DNA of 24,354 nucleotides from Fidelibacterota bacterium (GCA_021734045.1 JAIPJR010000046.1:1-24354); one strand, 5' to 3'. Counted from the first letter of the stretch, positions 6,256 to 13,661 are shown. The notes: generated by a model from the letters alone, not told the origin. Made by a program: numbers and translations.

Positions 6256-7764
6256 TCAGTCGGAAATTTTCAGGCGAATCCCTTTTGGGACCAGCCAGCG
6301 CTCGGATAGCTCAAACAGCCCCTGGACAACCAGCGCCATAACTGCGGCCGGAACAGCACCCTCCAGAATTAACCCCATATTATCAAGGCGAATGCCGGTA
6401 AGAATCGGCTGACCATAGCCACCAGCACCGATTAAGGCTCCCAATGTTGCCGTCCCGATACAAATGACAGCCGAAGTTTTAATGCCCGCCAGAATAGCCC
6501 GTGACGCCAATGGCAGATCGATTTTCCATAGCACTGCAACCCATGGCAGACCCAGGGCCAGAGCCGATTCCTGAATCCCCGGTTCAATGCTTTTCAGACC
6601 CGTATAGGTATTACGCACGATGGGCAACAGACCATACAGAAACAGCGCAAAAATGGCCGGCGGTCCGCCGATTCCCAACAGGGGAATCATAAACACCAGC
6701 AACGCCAGGGACGGGATGGTCTGAATAATACCCACAACGGCCAGAATTCCCTGACCGGTTTTGGGATGATAAGCTGACCAGATACCCAGCGGTAATGCCA
6801 GCAGAATAGCCGCACCCAGTGCGATTGCCACCAAAAACAGGTGTTCAACCGTGCGCTCCCAAATCCGTTGCCAGCGATTTTTTATCACTACTTGTGAGGT
6901 AATACCAAACGTGTCGTTTATCCACTCAGAGGCCACCACACCTTCCGGTTGCCGTTCTAATTTCACCCGACCATTTAATTGGCTCATGGTGGCGGCATCA
7001 ATCGTACCCAGCAGAGATTTTAACTTCGAGATCAGCCCAGGTGCTTCTGTGTCGAGATTTAAGCGATATAGGATAACAGCCTGATATTCAGGGAAATACA
7101 TCAGATCGTCCACCAGCGTTTTCAACTGGTAATAGTCAATTTCCGCATCCGTTGAATAGACATCGATAACATGAATATTGCCGTTCGCCAGACCACGATA
7201 TGCCAGATCATGATCTAATCCTCGCACATTTGAATGGGGGAGTTGGTACGCACGTTTCAAACCCGGCCAACCATCACTACGATCCATGAATTCATTGGTG
7301 AATCCCAACACCAGATCGGGAAATCGTTTTAAATCAGATATTCGGTTGATATTCAGCGTATCAGCTGTTTGGGAGAGCATTCCCAATGCGTAAGTATTGT
7401 TGAAGCCCAGTGGTGCCAGCATGCCGATGCCCTGGTTCCTTAAACTATCGCGAAGTGCAGCCATTCCTGGTGCCACCGAAAGGTCGGACAGAATTTCCTC
7501 GCGAATTGTGCCGGTGTATTCAGGATAGATCTGGATATCACCGCCCTGTAACGCGTTCCACAGAACCCGCGTACCACCCAACTCTCTGCGATGAATTGCT
7601 TCAAAGGAAGTCTGATTCACGGTTTGTGTGATGATTTCGCCCAGGATTACCGACTCAGTGAATTTTTTGGAGCCCACAACAATGGGTTCACCTGCTGGTT
7701 TTATTGCCAACAGGGGCGCTGCGAGCATCATTATGCAGAACCCGATGAGTGAACGCGCAATCAC
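6256..7764 (-). CDS. ABC importer: substrate-binding domain fused to permease (OpuC/ProX-ProW, EgtU-like family)
   Basis: This 502-residue protein begins with a signal peptide (hydrophobic 5-20, likely cleavage near LLA). An OpuAC/ProX-type binding domain follows at about 24-290, with GSKKFTESVILGEI at 31-44 and GGDIQIYPEYTGT near 74-86. The last part (about 305-495) is a BPD_transp_1 permease with five predicted helices and the cytoplasmic EAA loop around ESALALGLPWVAVLWKIDLPLA. The topology is consistent: binding domain outside, EAA loop inside. The order is the reverse of OpuABC and EgtU, which have the permease first. Ligands in this family include glycine betaine, choline, carnitine and ergothioneine. 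The divergent egtB-egtD genes make ergothioneine or another trimethylammonium compound plausible, but this is inference. The start is GTG 7762-7764, overlapping the ATPase stop, with GGAG eight bases upstream. Confidence 0.88.
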   Translation of the reverse strand: MIARSLIGFCIMMLAAPLLAIKPAGEPIVVGSKKFTESVILGEIITQTVNQTSFEAIHRRELGGTRVLWNALQGGDIQIYPEYTGTIREEILSDLSVAPGMAALRDSLRNQGIGMLAPLGFNNTYALGMLSQTADTLNINRISDLKRFPDLVLGFTNEFMDRSDGWPGLKRAYQLPHSNVRGLDHDLAYRGLANGNIHVIDVYSTDAEIDYYQLKTLVDDLMYFPEYQAVILYRLNLDTEAPGLISKLKSLLGTIDAATMSQLNGRVKLERQPEGVVASEWINDTFGITSQVVIKNRWQRIWERTVEHLFLVAIALGAAILLALPLGIWSAYHPKTGQGILAVVGIIQTIPSLALLVFMIPLLGIGGPPAIFALFLYGLLPIVRNTYTGLKSIEPGIQESALALGLPWVAVLWKIDLPLASRAILAGIKTSAVICIGTATLGALIGAGGYGQPILTGIRLDNMGLILEGAVPAAVMALVVQGLFELSERWLVPKGIRLKISD

Positions 7765-8510
7765 TGGTCATTCTCCGCGATAACCGTGACCTGCCGTTGG
7801 GCTTGAATGAAATCCTTCACAAACGGGTCGGCTGGTTGGTTAACCAGGGTTGTGATTGTGCCTTGTTGGACGATTCTGCCCTGGCGCATTAAAATGATTT
7901 CATCACCAAAAAATGCCGCTTCACCCATATCGTGGGTGACCAGAACTACCGTTTTTCTCAGCCGATTGAATATTTCCTTTAAATCCTGCTGTAAATTCGC
8001 CCGTATCATAGGGTCCAGCGCGCCTAACGGCTCATCCAGCAGGAGGACTTTAGGATCCAGCATCAACGCTCGCATGAGACTGACGCGCTGGCGCTGGCCA
8101 CCAGATAGTTGCAACGGGAAGCGGTGCCAAAGGCTTTCAGGAATCCGGGTGAGTTCAGAAAGTTCACCCAGGCGCTGTCGAATACGGGACTCGGACCAAT
8201 TCAGATACCGGGCTACCAGCGTGATATTCTGTTCTACGGTCAGGTGTGGAAACAGACCGCCCTCCTGAATCACATAACCCATCTGGTGACGGAGAGCCTG
8301 AATATTGCCAGGTGTAACAGCTTCTCTATCAAAGCGGATCTCACCACTATCCGGCTCTAGTAACCGGATCATCAGCTTCAGTAGTGTGGATTTTCCACAG
8401 CCGCTGGGGCCAATCAGAACAGATGTCTGTTCCTGCCTAAAGTCTAAATCCAGCGGCTGCAATGCAGCGAAAGAGCCGAAGCGTTTTGATACGCCATTCA
8501 GGGAAAACAT
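7761..8510 (-). CDS. ABC importer ATPase (ProV/OpuCA/EgtV-like)
   Basis: From ATG 8508-8510 the protein has 249 residues. It shows a complete nucleotide-binding domain: Walker A GPSGCGKST at 34-42, Q-loop Q82, signature LSGGQRQR at 135-142, Walker B VLLLDEP at 155-161 and H-loop H203 in VTHDM. It powers the fused binding/permease protein encoded downstream, with which it overlaps by four bases (GTGA). The C-terminal tandem CBS domains found in classic ProV/OpuCA are absent. The frame extends upstream to a TTG at 8658-8660, but those 50 extra residues do not resemble the family and would run into the divergent gene, so the internal ATG was chosen. No clear ribosome binding site precedes it. 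Confidence 0.9.
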   Translation of the reverse strand: MFSLNGVSKRFGSFAALQPLDLDFRQEQTSVLIGPSGCGKSTLLKLMIRLLEPDSGEIRFDREAVTPGNIQALRHQMGYVIQEGGLFPHLTVEQNITLVARYLNWSESRIRQRLGELSELTRIPESLWHRFPLQLSGGQRQRVSLMRALMLDPKVLLLDEPLGALDPMIRANLQQDLKEIFNRLRKTVVLVTHDMGEAAFFGDEIILMRQGRIVQQGTITTLVNQPADPFVKDFIQAQRQVTVIAENDQ

Positions 8511-8592
8511 AAAGGATAGTTTAGCGGGACCAGTCAATAATGGAAGCCTAAAATCAACCCCATTCAGCGCTCCGGTACCGTTGGTTTTCAAA

Positions 8593-8621
8593 TTGATATC
8601 CCAGTACGTAAACGATAGATT
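8593..8621 (+). promoter_or_regulatory. Candidate sigma-70-type promoter for the FG-GAP/egt genes
   Basis: A -35 box TTGATA (8593-8598, five of six consensus bases) and a -10 box TAGATT (8616-8621, four of six) are separated by exactly 17 bases. Transcription would begin near 8628, giving a leader of about 19 bases that contains the ribosome binding site at 8634-8639. Found by eye only. Confidence 0.45.
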
Positions 8622-8633
8622 TCGGGACCCGGC

Positions 8634-8639
8634 GAAAGG
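8634..8639 (+). promoter_or_regulatory. Ribosome binding site deciding the FG-GAP protein start
   Basis: GAAAGG, seven bases before GTG 8647. The codons after this GTG encode a typical signal peptide, whereas the open frame further upstream is only the antisense of the ATPase gene. Confidence 0.55.
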
Positions 8640-8646
8640 TTGGATT

Positions 8647-10575
8647 GTGGGAATTGTCAAGTTACTGAAAAACAGCGTTGTAATTGTCTTTGGCTTTCTA
8701 CTGATCTATTCCGCGATTAGTGTCTGGCCGGATGAGTCCCGTAAAGACATAAACCCAGAATTTACAGCTCTCCAGACTTCATCTGACCCCCACCATCAGT
8801 TCCTGAAAAACCCCCAAGTGTTGAACACGCCCGGAGCTATTGAGAACCCGACCGGCAAAACAGCTTTAGAAAACCGTGGTTCCGATGGAATCCATATCAT
8901 TTCTCGCCAATCGGTACAGAATAGACAGTTCATGCCGGTGAGTAGAATTATACCCGAATCGGGAATTCCCGGTAGTATGGTTACCATCTTCTGCCCGGGC
9001 ATCATGCCGGATGACGACGCACAGGTCTTCATGAATGGCGAATCGGTGCGTGTGAACACCCTGGAGTCTGGCCAGGTGAGCGTCCTGCTCCCTGGAGGTA
9101 TGTATGGGCTCGTCCATGTTGAAGTCGTTACAGAGAATACTTACTATCAAAGCTTAAGTGGATTAAATATCCTTCGCCCGCAACCTTCATCACCCTATTT
9201 TGCCCATCCGGAGGTTGTCACCAGGTCTGCTGTCAATCTGGACCGAATATGGTCGTTTGACATGGATTTAGATGGTGATACTGACATTTTTACCACATCC
9301 CAGAGCAGCGGCTACTTGGCCTGGCTGGAAAATCTTGACGACCGGGGAACGTACGGTCCACCAATTGTTGTGCACGACGGAGCTGACTCACTGATAACCG
9401 TGGGAATTCAGGACATGGATGATGATGGTGACCGGGATATTTATGCCGTTTTAGCATCTACATCACAATTTGTCTGGTTCGAAAATGTGGATGGGATCGG
9501 GCGTTTCACAGCGCCCCGCACCATTCCTGCTATTAACCAGCCCGTTCACTGGGCCGCTTGTGCAGATTTGGATGGGGATGGTAAGACGGACGTACTGACT
9601 GCGGGTGCAGGCAGCCAGGGTGGTTACCTGACCTGGTACAAAAATCGTGATGGAAGGGGAAATTTCTCTGAAGCACAACCCATCGCGCATTCACCTGATC
9701 CTTTCCTCTGGGTTACGGTGGGGGATTTGAATCATAATGGTGATATTGATGTATTGGCAGCCTGTTCTGGTGAGAATGAAATAAGCTGGTTCGTGAATCT
9801 CAATGGCGCTGCACGCTTTTCCAGTGCCCAGGTTATTACGAACATGGTAGCAGGCCCCACAACCGCTGTGGCTACGGATTTGAACGGCGACAAGTTTGTC
9901 GATGTGCTCTCTGTCTCCTCTCAGGATAGTAAAATTGCATGGTACCGGAACCGGGACGGACGGGGTGTGTTTGGCAATCAGGTGACGATTAGCACCACGG
10001 TCACCGGTGCAGAGGCCGTGAGTGCGGCTGATCTGGATGCGGATGGTGATTTGGATGTGCTCTCTTCCAGCACTACAGATGGGCGAATCGTCTGGTTTGA
10101 AAATGCCGGCGGAGGCGAATTCCTCACCGAAAACACAATTACCAATGATAATGCGCGTGCCCGGTATGTTCAGGCAGCAGATGTGGATTCTGATGGTGAT
10201 TTGGATATTTTGGCGGTTGCATTTACGGGGGACGAGATTCTGCTTTTCAGGCAGTTATCACCCTTTGTGGGGAATAATGTCCGATCGGCCATCCCGCGAG
10301 AATTCCGCCTGCACCAAAACTATCCCAATCCTTTCAATCCCAGAACAACGATTCGCTATAGCCTGCCTGAAGCCAGCGAGGTGGAACTGGTGGTCATGAA
10401 TGCAGTGGGTCAGGTGGTGAATACGCTTGTCCATGAATATCAACAAGCCGGGTTTAAATCGGTTGTGTGGGACGGTCGGGATGAGAATGGAAAATCGCTG
10501 GGGTCAGGTGTCTATTTTTACCGCATTAAAGCGGGATTCTACCGGGAATCCCGGAGAATGATTTTAATCCGCTGA
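8647..10575 (+). CDS. Secreted seven-repeat FG-GAP/VCBS beta-propeller protein with type IX sorting domain
   Basis: From GTG 8647 the product has 642 residues. It has a signal peptide (hydrophobic 8-24), a spacer, an IPT/TIG-like domain at about 96-178, and seven FG-GAP/VCBS repeats. Their DxDxDGDxDI-type calcium-binding motifs begin at residues 205, 256, 307, 360, 411, 462 and 512, a period of about 51. Most repeats also carry a W-[FY/L]-x-N motif, which suggests a seven-bladed propeller. The last 90 residues or so (from FRLHQNYPNPFNP) form a FlgD-like, type IX secretion C-terminal domain ending in RMILIR. The protein should be exported and either anchored at the cell surface or released. 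The ligand or partner is unknown. It lies 62 bases upstream of egtB in the same direction, so co-transcription is possible. Confidence 0.88.
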   Translation: MGIVKLLKNSVVIVFGFLLIYSAISVWPDESRKDINPEFTALQTSSDPHHQFLKNPQVLNTPGAIENPTGKTALENRGSDGIHIISRQSVQNRQFMPVSRIIPESGIPGSMVTIFCPGIMPDDDAQVFMNGESVRVNTLESGQVSVLLPGGMYGLVHVEVVTENTYYQSLSGLNILRPQPSSPYFAHPEVVTRSAVNLDRIWSFDMDLDGDTDIFTTSQSSGYLAWLENLDDRGTYGPPIVVHDGADSLITVGIQDMDDDGDRDIYAVLASTSQFVWFENVDGIGRFTAPRTIPAINQPVHWAACADLDGDGKTDVLTAGAGSQGGYLTWYKNRDGRGNFSEAQPIAHSPDPFLWVTVGDLNHNGDIDVLAACSGENEISWFVNLNGAARFSSAQVITNMVAGPTTAVATDLNGDKFVDVLSVSSQDSKIAWYRNRDGRGVFGNQVTISTTVTGAEAVSAADLDADGDLDVLSSSTTDGRIVWFENAGGGEFLTENTITNDNARARYVQAADVDSDGDLDILAVAFTGDEILLFRQLSPFVGNNVRSAIPREFRLHQNYPNPFNPRTTIRYSLPEASEVELVVMNAVGQVVNTLVHEYQQAGFKSVVWDGRDENGKSLGSGVYFYRIKAGFYRESRRMILIR

Positions 10576-10637
10576 TTCAGTTGAATACAGATTTTTCCAC
10601 TGGTATCCGAATCGCTTCATCTATCTGAAAGCACATT

Positions 10638-11918
10638 ATGCAGCGCCAAGACCTTTCGCAATCATACGCCACTATTCGTCAGTTGACGGAAAAGCTTTGC
10701 CGACCCCTGGCGTTGGAAGATTACCTGCCCCAGCCCATTCAGGATGTGAGTCCGCCCAAATGGCATTTAGCACACACCACCTGGTTTTTCGAAACCTTTA
10801 TTCTTAAAAAATATCTCTGCGCTTATCAGGACTATAACCCGCAGTTCAATTATCTGTTCAACTCCTATTATCAATCCATGGGTACACCATTCAATCGTCC
10901 GCAACGGGGTGATTTATCACGACCAACGGTGGCGGAAGTTTATCAATACCGGGCTGCAGTTGATGATCAAATACTCAATTTGCTGAAAACGGCCGCTGTA
11001 AAAACCAATCCGGATCTTAAAGCACTCCTGATATTAGGGCTGCACCATGAACAACAGCACCAGGAGTTATTGATTACCGATATAAAGTATATCCTGGCGC
11101 AAAATCCTGTCATGCCGGCCTATAGTCCACGAGGTTCAAAAATTTCAGGTAGAGAAAAACAACAGGTCATCCCGTTGAATTTTCGCACAATCGAGGGTGG
11201 GTTAAAAGAAATCGGGTGGCCGCGAGATTCAGGATTCTGTTTTGATAATGAAATGCCACGACACCAAGTCCATCTGGCACCGTTTCGACTGGCGAACCGG
11301 CCGGTCACAAACGGAGAATATTTAGCATTTATCCGGGACGGCGGCTATTCTGATTTTCGACATTGGTTATCCGACGGTTGGGATTGGGTGCAGGCCAATG
11401 CTATCCAGGCACCACTTTATTGGCAGGAACGCGAGGGTGAGTGGTTCGAAAGGACATTATCTGGTGATGGGCCGGTTGATTTGCATCGACCGGTGGCGCA
11501 TGTGAGCTATTATGAAGCGGAAGCCTATGCCAGCTGGGCTGGTAAACGGCTGCCCACTGAGCAGGAGTGGGAGAGTGCTGCTGTTGTGGCATCTGGAGTG
11601 GAAAATGTGGCCGGATCCCTACTGGAGGATCGAGAGTTTCATCCTGCCGCACCAATAAATGCCACGGCAAACGGCTTTTACCAACTGACAGGAGATGTCT
11701 GGGAATGGACCAACAGCGCCTATCTCCCGTATCCGGGGTATCGTCATTCAGCAGATGCCCTGGGTGAGTACAATGGTAAATTTATGAGCGGTCAGATGGT
11801 TCTACGCGGGGGATCTTGTGCCACGCCGCAAAATCATATTCGATTGACCTACCGGAATTTTTTCCATCCGGAAAAACGCTGGCAGTTTACCGGTATCCGG
11901 CTGGCTGATAATCTTTAA
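10638..11918 (+). CDS. egtB: Ergothioneine sulfoxide synthase EgtB
   Basis: This 426-residue protein has the two-domain layout of EgtB. An N-terminal DinB-like helical domain carries the three iron-binding histidines, here H46 in KWHLAHTTWFFE and H137 and H141 in HHEQQHQE (the HxxxHxE motif). A C-terminal FGE/formylglycine-enzyme-like domain (about 190-425) has GKRLPTEQEWE, GDVWEWTNS and MVLRGGSCATPQNHIR. The enzyme uses Fe(II) and O2 to join hercynine to a thiol (gamma-glutamylcysteine or cysteine), giving the sulfoxide precursor of ergothioneine. It is not OvoA because the methyltransferase is a separate gene. No egtA, egtC or C-S lyase gene is nearby, so the cysteine-using two-gene route is attractive but unproven. 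egtD follows after 28 bases. Confidence 0.94.
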   Translation: MQRQDLSQSYATIRQLTEKLCRPLALEDYLPQPIQDVSPPKWHLAHTTWFFETFILKKYLCAYQDYNPQFNYLFNSYYQSMGTPFNRPQRGDLSRPTVAEVYQYRAAVDDQILNLLKTAAVKTNPDLKALLILGLHHEQQHQELLITDIKYILAQNPVMPAYSPRGSKISGREKQQVIPLNFRTIEGGLKEIGWPRDSGFCFDNEMPRHQVHLAPFRLANRPVTNGEYLAFIRDGGYSDFRHWLSDGWDWVQANAIQAPLYWQEREGEWFERTLSGDGPVDLHRPVAHVSYYEAEAYASWAGKRLPTEQEWESAAVVASGVENVAGSLLEDREFHPAAPINATANGFYQLTGDVWEWTNSAYLPYPGYRHSADALGEYNGKFMSGQMVLRGGSCATPQNHIRLTYRNFFHPEKRWQFTGIRLADNL

Positions 11919-11946
11919 TAACCCCTAAAATTCAGCATATTACGAC

Positions 11947-12942
11947 ATGAAACAAACGTATCGTATCCTAAAACCAAGTGCTCAGAATGCTGAGACTGCC
12001 CGACAACGATTTCTGCATGATGTGGAGCAGGGATTGTCTCAGTCCCCCAAATCTATTCCCTCACGCTATTTTTACGATGAAACGGGCAGTAAAATTTTTG
12101 AGCAGATAATGGATCTGCCGGAGTACTACCTCACCAGGGCAGAGTACGAAATACTCAATAACAGCCGACAACAACTTGCGGAAATGATGAACCTCCAGGG
12201 GTTTAACCTGATTGAGCTGGGCGCTGGGGACGGCCGTAAGACCCGGGTGTTGCTGGAGTACTTACAGTCCGCCAAAATTGATTTTAGGTACATTCCCATT
12301 GATATCAGCCCGGGCGCTATGGCAACCCTGCAAGAGGAGGTCAGTGCCTGCTGTGGTGATTTGGAGATGCTGGGCGTGGTAGGAGAGTATTTCCAAGGTT
12401 TGAATTGGGTGGAGAAGCAAGTCGGTGGCGCTTCGCTGGTATTATTCCTGGGATCTAATATTGGAAATTTCCACCCTGGGAAGGCAAAGGTATTTCTCCG
12501 TCGTCTGCGGCAGGTTCTGCGTCCGGGCGATTTTGTACTCATGGGTTTTGATCTGAAAAAAGACACGCGGCGGCTGAACGCAGCTTATAATGACAAGCAG
12601 GGAATTACCGCTCAATTTAATCTGAATCTGCTCAACCGAATTAATGGAGAGTTAGCGGGAGCGTTTGATTTGGATAATTGGGCGTTTTATAGTTGGTATA
12701 ATCCCCTGAGCGGGGCCGTGGAAAGTTCTCTCCTGAGCCAGGTCCGGCAAACAGTGCATATTGGTGCGTGTGACAGGAATTTTGTATTTGATGCCTGGGA
12801 AGCGATTCACACCGAATTTTCGTTCAAGTACAGTGAGGCTGAGATTGAATCGATGGCAAAACTAGCGGGATTTTTAGTAGTCCATCATTTCTACGATAAT
12901 CAACATGATTTTGTTGACTCCCTTTGGAGGGTACCAGCATGA
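11947..12942 (+). CDS. egtD: L-histidine N-alpha-methyltransferase EgtD
   Basis: The 331-residue protein belongs to the Methyltransf_33 (DUF2260) family and makes hercynine by trimethylating the histidine alpha-amino group with S-adenosylmethionine. Family features are PSRYFYDETGSKIFEQI at 38-54, the SAM-binding ELGAGDGRKT at 90-99, FLGSNIGN at 167-174 and the histidine-pocket region near the C-terminus. Residues aligned by eye with the histidine-binding set of mycobacterial EgtD (Asn166, Tyr206, Glu282, Ser284, recalled from the literature) are N171, Y214, E290 and S292. All are conserved, which supports true histidine methylation. The gene follows egtB by 28 bases, and its stop overlaps the SDR start in ATGA. 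Confidence 0.94.
   Translation: MKQTYRILKPSAQNAETARQRFLHDVEQGLSQSPKSIPSRYFYDETGSKIFEQIMDLPEYYLTRAEYEILNNSRQQLAEMMNLQGFNLIELGAGDGRKTRVLLEYLQSAKIDFRYIPIDISPGAMATLQEEVSACCGDLEMLGVVGEYFQGLNWVEKQVGGASLVLFLGSNIGNFHPGKAKVFLRRLRQVLRPGDFVLMGFDLKKDTRRLNAAYNDKQGITAQFNLNLLNRINGELAGAFDLDNWAFYSWYNPLSGAVESSLLSQVRQTVHIGACDRNFVFDAWEAIHTEFSFKYSEAEIESMAKLAGFLVVHHFYDNQHDFVDSLWRVPA
12926..12930 (+). promoter_or_regulatory. Ribosome binding site deciding the SDR start
   Basis: GGAGG inside the end of egtD, eight bases before ATG 12939. It favours this ATG over the in-frame TTG at 12924 and points to translational coupling. Confidence 0.7.
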
Positions 12943-13661
12943 GTCAGTCCAAATCAAATCGCCCGGTTATAATTGTGACCGGAGCCAGCCGGGGCATCGG
13001 TCGTTTATTGTGTGAGGGTTTGCTGGAAAAAAATGGTGTGGTATATGGCCTTGCCAGGCACAAGGCGGAAATGACGATTCCTGACCCGCCGAAGAGAAGT
13101 GAGTTCATTCCATACACGATGGATATTGCCCAGCCGAAAGAAATCGAAAAATTTTACGCTCATCTGGATGAAAAACAGGATACGCCATCGGTACTGATTA
13201 ATAATGCGGGCGTTGGATATTTTAAGCATGCGGAAGATTTGACACTGGAAGAATGGCAGGCGATGGTGGCAACCAATTTAACGGGCACCTTCCTCATGAC
13301 ACAGGGGGCGATTCACCGGATGAAGCGCCAGAGGATGGGGACAATCGTGAATATGATCTCAGTTGCCGGACGACAACCATTTCGTAATGGCAGTGGATAC
13401 GCCGTTACAAAATTCGGATTAGACGGCTTCACCAAAGTAATCCGGGAGGAGCTGAGGAAATTCAGAATCCGGGTGATTGGTGTGTATCCCGGAGCCACAA
13501 ACAGCACCTGGTGGGATGAGATTCCGGGCAGCGAAAATCTCCCCAGGGAGAAAATGCTCCCGCCCGAAACTGTGGCGAATGCGATTCTAAATGCACTGGC
13601 TCAGCCAGCAGAAGTGGTAATGGAGGAAATTGTCATCCGAAGTATTTACGGGAACTATTAA
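12939..13661 (+). CDS. Short-chain dehydrogenase/reductase coupled to egtD
   Basis: The 240-residue protein is a classical SDR. It has the NAD(P)-binding TGASRGIG at 14-21 and NNAG at 88-91, and a complete catalytic tetrad N113, S141, Y154, K158 with the normal 13-residue Ser-Tyr spacing. The arginine in TGASRGIG suggests NADPH. Its substrate cannot be deduced; the nearest textbook label would be 3-oxoacyl-ACP-reductase-like. The context is the interesting part: its ATG overlaps the egtD stop by four bases with a strong GGAGG upstream, so it is made together with EgtB and EgtD. No SDR step is known in ergothioneine synthesis, so it may process a related metabolite or merely share regulation. 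It is the last gene in this direction. Confidence 0.9.
   Translation: MSQSKSNRPVIIVTGASRGIGRLLCEGLLEKNGVVYGLARHKAEMTIPDPPKRSEFIPYTMDIAQPKEIEKFYAHLDEKQDTPSVLINNAGVGYFKHAEDLTLEEWQAMVATNLTGTFLMTQGAIHRMKRQRMGTIVNMISVAGRQPFRNGSGYAVTKFGLDGFTKVIREELRKFRIRVIGVYPGATNSTWWDEIPGSENLPREKMLPPETVANAILNALAQPAEVVMEEIVIRSIYGNY

Follow-up and report, generated by a model that had tools for sequence, protein, structure and literature searches.

A putative ergothioneine importer encoded beside ergothioneine synthesis genes in Fidelibacterota and other bacterial phyla

Bacterial ergothioneine importers have so far been described in organisms that do not produce the compound, namely Streptococcus, other Firmicutes and Helicobacter. 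Helicobacter pylori, with its EgtUV system, is one such non-producer. In EgtUBC of Streptococcus pneumoniae and BilEB of Listeria monocytogenes, an OpuAC-type binding domain (SBD) is fused to a permease domain (TMD) and accompanied by an ATPase (PMC9732360). Two determinants of specificity have been named for the S. pneumoniae protein (SpEgtU), G244 and an F293/Y337 switch, and in a G244F mutant the affinity for ergothioneine drops about 100-fold (PMC9732360). Here we describe an importer of the same general composition from the Fidelibacterota which, unlike the known EgtU systems of non-producers, adjoins ergothioneine synthesis genes. Judging from the sequences compared below, we consider it fairly probable that two divergent gene sets would jointly make and take in ergothioneine, and that the importer represents a domain-permuted, EgtU-like branch, mainly associated with producers, with ergothioneine as its likeliest ligand.

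The stretch of DNA analysed (the window, 24,354 nucleotides) makes up the complete contig G000:C10 in the 2.5 Mb, 92% complete genome of an uncultured bacterium from the sea, whose nearest named relative is Ca. Neomarinimicrobiota isolate Tobar14m-G39. Genes were assigned using Pfam and NCBIfam profiles with curated cut-offs (Table 1). The importer is a two-gene system comprising an SBD/permease fusion and an ATPase, whose ATG start at 8510 was placed by homology to relatives. A first-pass annotation had described egtB, egtD and an SDR gene opposite this importer. Its coordinates and the divergent layout were confirmed, but it had missed a gene for a secreted FG-GAP repeat protein, which probably starts with the GTG at 8647. 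This gene lies between the two sets and is the first on the egt side, which led us to reject an arrangement in which egtB directly faces the importer genes over a single intergenic region. The plus-strand genes (FG-GAP, egtB, egtD and SDR) are spaced by 62, 28 and -19 bp, consistent with a single transcript. Scanning the divergent intergenic region for consensus promoters and terminators gave signals no higher than in shuffled sequences. In the sister species (G001, locus L059) the entire arrangement is preserved, including the FG-GAP gene. This gene with its T9SS-type tail (7583-9346 in L059) heads the egt unit only in the window genus. The SDR gene also adjoins egtD only there and does not recur in other linked loci; its product could act on a compound of the ergothioneine pathway or be unrelated.

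Table 1. Features of the importer and ergothioneine synthesis locus (window coordinates).
Feature	Position	Strand	Evidence
Importer fusion: signal sequence, OpuAC SBD (aa 27-283) and permease (aa 323-493)	6256-7764	-	Pfam PF04069 E 9e-52, PF00528 E 2e-19
SBD of importer fusion	6895-7695	-	Alignment to SpEgtUC, LmBilEB and AfProX; AlphaFold model
ABC ATPase, ProV/OpuCA type, no CBS extension	7761-8510	-	PF00005 E 3e-36, TIGR01186 227 bits
Divergent intergenic region; would hold both promoters	8511-8646	.	Sequence and start positions
Secreted FG-GAP repeat protein, FlgD_ig / T9SS-type tail	~8647-10575	+	PF13517 E 9e-48, TIGR04183 above cut-off
EgtB, sulfoxide synthase, Chloracidobacterium (cysteine-using) type	10638-11918	+	TIGR03440 572 bits (cut-off 360)
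EgtD, histidine N-alpha-methyltransferase	11947-12942	+	TIGR03438 315 bits (cut-off 291)
SDR-family oxidoreductase, overlaps egtD end	12924-13661	+	PF00106 E 2e-46

Both synthesis enzymes retain their key residues, in agreement with the earlier description. EgtB contains intact DinB-type H43/H46 and H137/H141 motifs. For EgtD the nearest solved structures are 7scf and 4uy6, and alignment to the latter revealed that it retains the motif residues (Y, N, Y and E/S) of the mycobacterial structures. The nearest solved relatives of EgtB are 8qf6/6qki/6o6l; the Chloracidobacterium enzyme is matched over the full length (E 4e-143), and only ordinary sequence divergence separates EgtB from the C. thermophilum protein (6qki/6o6l). 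Mycobacterial EgtB is a much poorer match (E 2e-40). Since C. thermophilum EgtB (CthEgtB) prefers cysteine (PMC10903977), the window enzyme would yield hercynylcysteine sulfoxide, a correction to the earlier description. Such a preference fits the missing EgtC: none was found in the genome, where the sole match was weak and fell within a 618-aa frame that is probably GlmS. No dedicated egtE gene was detected either; nothing in the genome scored above the EgtE cut-off, so that the C-S lyase step would fall to a PLP enzyme of general function.

The importer fusion shares 85% identity with its copy in the sister species and about 57-60% with those of other genera and phyla. Its SBD is N-terminal and its TMD C-terminal. 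In contrast, SpEgtU carries the SBD at the C terminus (residues 233-506), and H. pylori EgtU, also a fused protein, has the TMD first and the SBD at residues 287-553. A confident AlphaFold model of the window SBD (pLDDT 94.6) found EgtU, OpuBC and ProX as fold neighbours, all at Z scores of about 31-34 and within about 3 Z units (32-33 for the H. pylori structures 8dp6/8dp7), so that EgtU-like and betaine/choline-like proteins could not be told apart by fold. The EgtU proteins of S. pneumoniae, L. monocytogenes and H. pylori are among the top neighbours by sequence and fold, SpEgtU being one of the best PDB sequence matches. ProX of Archaeoglobus fulgidus (AfProX, 1sw2), which binds glycine betaine and proline betaine, is 34% identical to the window SBD.

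To compare the binding pockets, we mapped the window SBD onto the SpEgtUC-ergothioneine structure (PMC9732360). The aromatic cage is kept: N123, Y125, Y203 and Y227 correspond to N339, Y341, Y419 and Y443 of SpEgtU, and Y83 contributes in addition. All of K33, T65, T86, E158 and R162 match the SpEgtU contacts to carboxylate and imidazole (K242, T275, T296, E375 and R379), an equivalent of D381 is present, and K33, T86 and R162 are the carboxylate contacts. AfProX has the K/T/E/R contacts too, so these are not diagnostic of EgtU. At the named specificity sites the window SBD differs from SpEgtU. The invariant G244 is replaced by F35 (phenylalanine in 98 of 99 aligned proteins), I243 by K34, and the F293/Y337 switch by Y83/F121, which is the AfProX arrangement. 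Indeed, AfProX carries the same F/Y/F residues at the 244/293/337 sites, and its combination of a pentagonal cage of four tyrosines with a phenylalanine at the G244 site recurs in the window SBD (Y83, Y125, Y203, Y227 and F35). The OpuAC-permease fusion with its ATPase shares the composition of the EgtU systems, but membership of the SpEgtU type, from which the residues at the G244 and F293/Y337 sites and the domain order all depart, is not supported. The suggested pocket comparison with EgtU and betaine complexes went partly against the first-pass interpretation, with the K/T/R/E contacts and the betaine-type cage kept but AfProX-type residues at the named specificity sites. By the published pocket rule, the window importer is not a SpEgtU-type EgtU. 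F35 would be the main sticking point for ergothioneine as ligand, and the pocket argues for caution.

Part of this rule is not general, however. H. pylori EgtU, solved with ergothioneine (8dp7), has a tyrosine at the 293 site, like the window SBD, and a serine at the 244 site, where the window SBD has phenylalanine (residues taken from a PDB alignment with a constructed ProX-like probe). It binds ergothioneine without F293. Moreover, four positions at or close to the segments that touch the ligand (N157, W166, H185 and D186) are nearly invariant in the window family and peculiar to it, as are a mostly conserved K34 and the motif RGxDHD. AfProX is without the former four and without K34. These family-own residues suggest that the window-type pocket may have evolved separately.

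We then analysed how often importer and synthesis genes occur together. The importer was detected in 23 of the 245 genomes of the phylum, egtD in 31 and both in 22. That is, egtD is present in 22/23 importer genomes versus 9/222 genomes without the importer (Fisher p 3.6e-23, with genomes taken as independent and shared ancestry ignored). The survey of related genomes proposed earlier therefore revealed a strong linkage. In 19 of the 22 cases both genes are on the same contig, and the lone importer genome without egtD (G038) is 69% complete. The phylum has 29 OpuAC-domain genes, nearly all of the window importer kind apart from a handful, and 22 of the 29 share a contig with egtD at a distance of no more than about 15 kb. 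In nine genomes of another genus of the same order (g3), the importer genes are embedded in an operon on one strand, egtB-[DUF5996-like]-ATPase-SBD/TMD-egtD, where 75-90 bp separate the importer and egtD. The uncharacterised gene between egtB and the ATPase in this operon encodes about 285 aa with weak likeness to DUF5996 (PF19459, below cut-off; L060 7094-7942, L061 1417-2271, L068 6811-7686, L070 6804-7652). One further locus (L076, G004:C94:4325-6067) has an intact egtD, but its egtB is broken and its importer reduced to a short remnant containing one stop codon, which looks like operon decay or an assembly fault.

Because these counts are uncorrected for kinship, we turned to a second phylum, Latescibacterota. 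There, egtD was found in 10/17 importer genomes versus 3/47 others (p 2.5e-5), and 9 of the 10 importer-egtD pairs are at most 3 kb apart. The importers of the seven genomes without egtD (G265, G269, G273, G314, G316, G319 and G320), which are candidate scavengers, score closely like the rest.

A scan of species genomes across phyla retained 80 importer relatives (56-85% identical, flanks of up to 10 kb). Within about 10 kb of the importer, egtD was present at 27 of the 80 loci, distributed over nine named phyla: Fidelibacterota, Planctomycetota (Scalindua), Nitrospinota, Poribacteria, Latescibacterota, Thermodesulfobacteriota, Acidobacteriota, Effluviviacota and a record named Gemmatimonadetes. 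Gene orders vary, with egtD before the ATPase or after the fusion, egtB inverted, or a divergent layout as in the window (L141 and L158). When all neighbouring frames were clustered, only egtD and egtB recurred beside the importer across distant loci. When linkage was mapped onto a quick tree built from 89 importers, at least 14 changes were required, an approximate count given the many weakly supported branches, compared to a mean of 26.5 for shuffled labels (0 of 500 shuffles as low). The linkage between importer and egt genes is real and far beyond chance. Together with the two phylum-wide counts, it supports the pairing of synthesis with a linked importer that the first-pass annotation had pointed out.

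For roughly two thirds of the importer relatives, no neighbouring gene recurs, for instance L085, L100, L142 and L143 (Pseudomonadota, Nitrospirota and Myxococcota). Two loci named Gemmatimonadetes (L158 and L128) group with Latescibacterota, and the importer of L163 (Comamonas sp. KCTC 72670, assembly of about 9 Mb) groups inside Myxococcus, which probably reflects a mislabelled or mixed record. Among 41 unlinked importer genomes tested, 32 have egtD elsewhere and nine are without it, some of these nine being incomplete assemblies. Pocket residues did not differ between egt-linked and unlinked importers. Unlinked importers, including those of the nine genomes without egtD, therefore either share the ligand or contradict its assignment.

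What could account for this linkage other than ergothioneine uptake? That it is a neighbourhood held by chance or descent, with no shared function, is very improbable. Within one genus the layout is inherited and the genomes are not independent, but this explanation is contradicted by gene order and orientation, which vary across nine phyla, by the 14 or more changes of linkage among the importers and by the two phylum-wide co-occurrence tests. A more serious alternative, though in our view an unlikely one, is that the importer takes up a small compatible solute such as glycine betaine and is tied to the egt genes through methyl supply to SAM for EgtD or through a shared stress regulon. The family is OpuAC/ProV-like, its residues at the 244, 293 and 337 sites are those of AfProX, and egtD is missing from some importer genomes. 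However, OpuAC importers in the phylum are nearly confined to genomes with egtD (24/25 versus 7/220 others), which is unexpected for an osmolyte importer of marine bacteria, and a stand-alone OpuAC binding protein, with a permease close by, is encoded separately in the window genus (G001). Ionic-strength sensing in the osmotic OpuA system is carried by CBS modules, and the window ATPase is without such a module.

It is less probable still that the importer delivers hercynine, or analogues of histidine betaine, as substrate for EgtB instead of the finished product. Linkage is equally to egtB and egtD, and F35 would fill a space that holds water near the thione in SpEgtU, so that a sulfur-free ligand may fit better. 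Yet EgtD encoded in the same loci already makes hercynine, and the solved EgtU proteins discriminate against it (PMC9732360). Hercynine is accordingly the second-choice ligand, less likely than ergothioneine. Since nine phyla or more show a tie between this importer type and egt genes, its probable role is dedicated ergothioneine import by producers, and we predict ergothioneine as its likely ligand. On these comparisons it appears about as likely as not that the whole SBD-TMD branch, with its K-F pocket signature and RGxDHD motif and its spread over at least nine phyla, serves ergothioneine alone in self-producers.

In the proposed ergothioneine cycle, EgtD, by its family membership, trimethylates histidine to hercynine, which the cysteine-using EgtB, as suggested by its nearest solved relative, would join to cysteine as the sulfoxide; a general PLP C-S lyase encoded elsewhere in the genome would complete ergothioneine. 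The periplasmic SBD, tethered before the permease, may capture ergothioneine leaked from the cell itself or supplied by neighbours, gripping the trimethylammonium group in the aromatic cage and the carboxylate with K33, T86 and R162. The ligand would then pass through the homodimeric permease to the cytosol, powered by the ATPase, alongside new synthesis by EgtD and EgtB. The nine importer genomes without egtD could belong to scavengers comparable to Streptococcus and Helicobacter, or to users of another ligand.

If a producer-linked importer family does extend across many phyla, then producers would import ergothioneine too, and recapture or sharing of the product would be a normal part of bacterial ergothioneine metabolism. 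Recognition of ergothioneine would not need the G244/F293 signature; the window family would thus put the published pocket rule for ergothioneine specificity to the test. It would also offer a sequence basis on which to annotate the hundreds of proteins now labelled 'glycine betaine transporter', and would lead one to ask whether ergothioneine leaks from cells and is exchanged between them in marine communities. While EgtU and EgtUV themselves are known, the open-licence literature searched yielded no account of an egtBD-linked importer, nor a description of a linked, domain-permuted, producer-associated branch; both are weak negatives.

Within the same phylum, an importer of a second type is also associated with ergothioneine synthesis, and this association is independent of the first. 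One genome contains the operon egtB-egtC-egtD-ATPase-importer (L074, G028:C2 7490-12845), in which the importer has the usual TMD-SBD order and an SBD closest to AfProX. In another, egtD-ATPase-importer were found on a 3.4-kb contig (L075, G033:C73).
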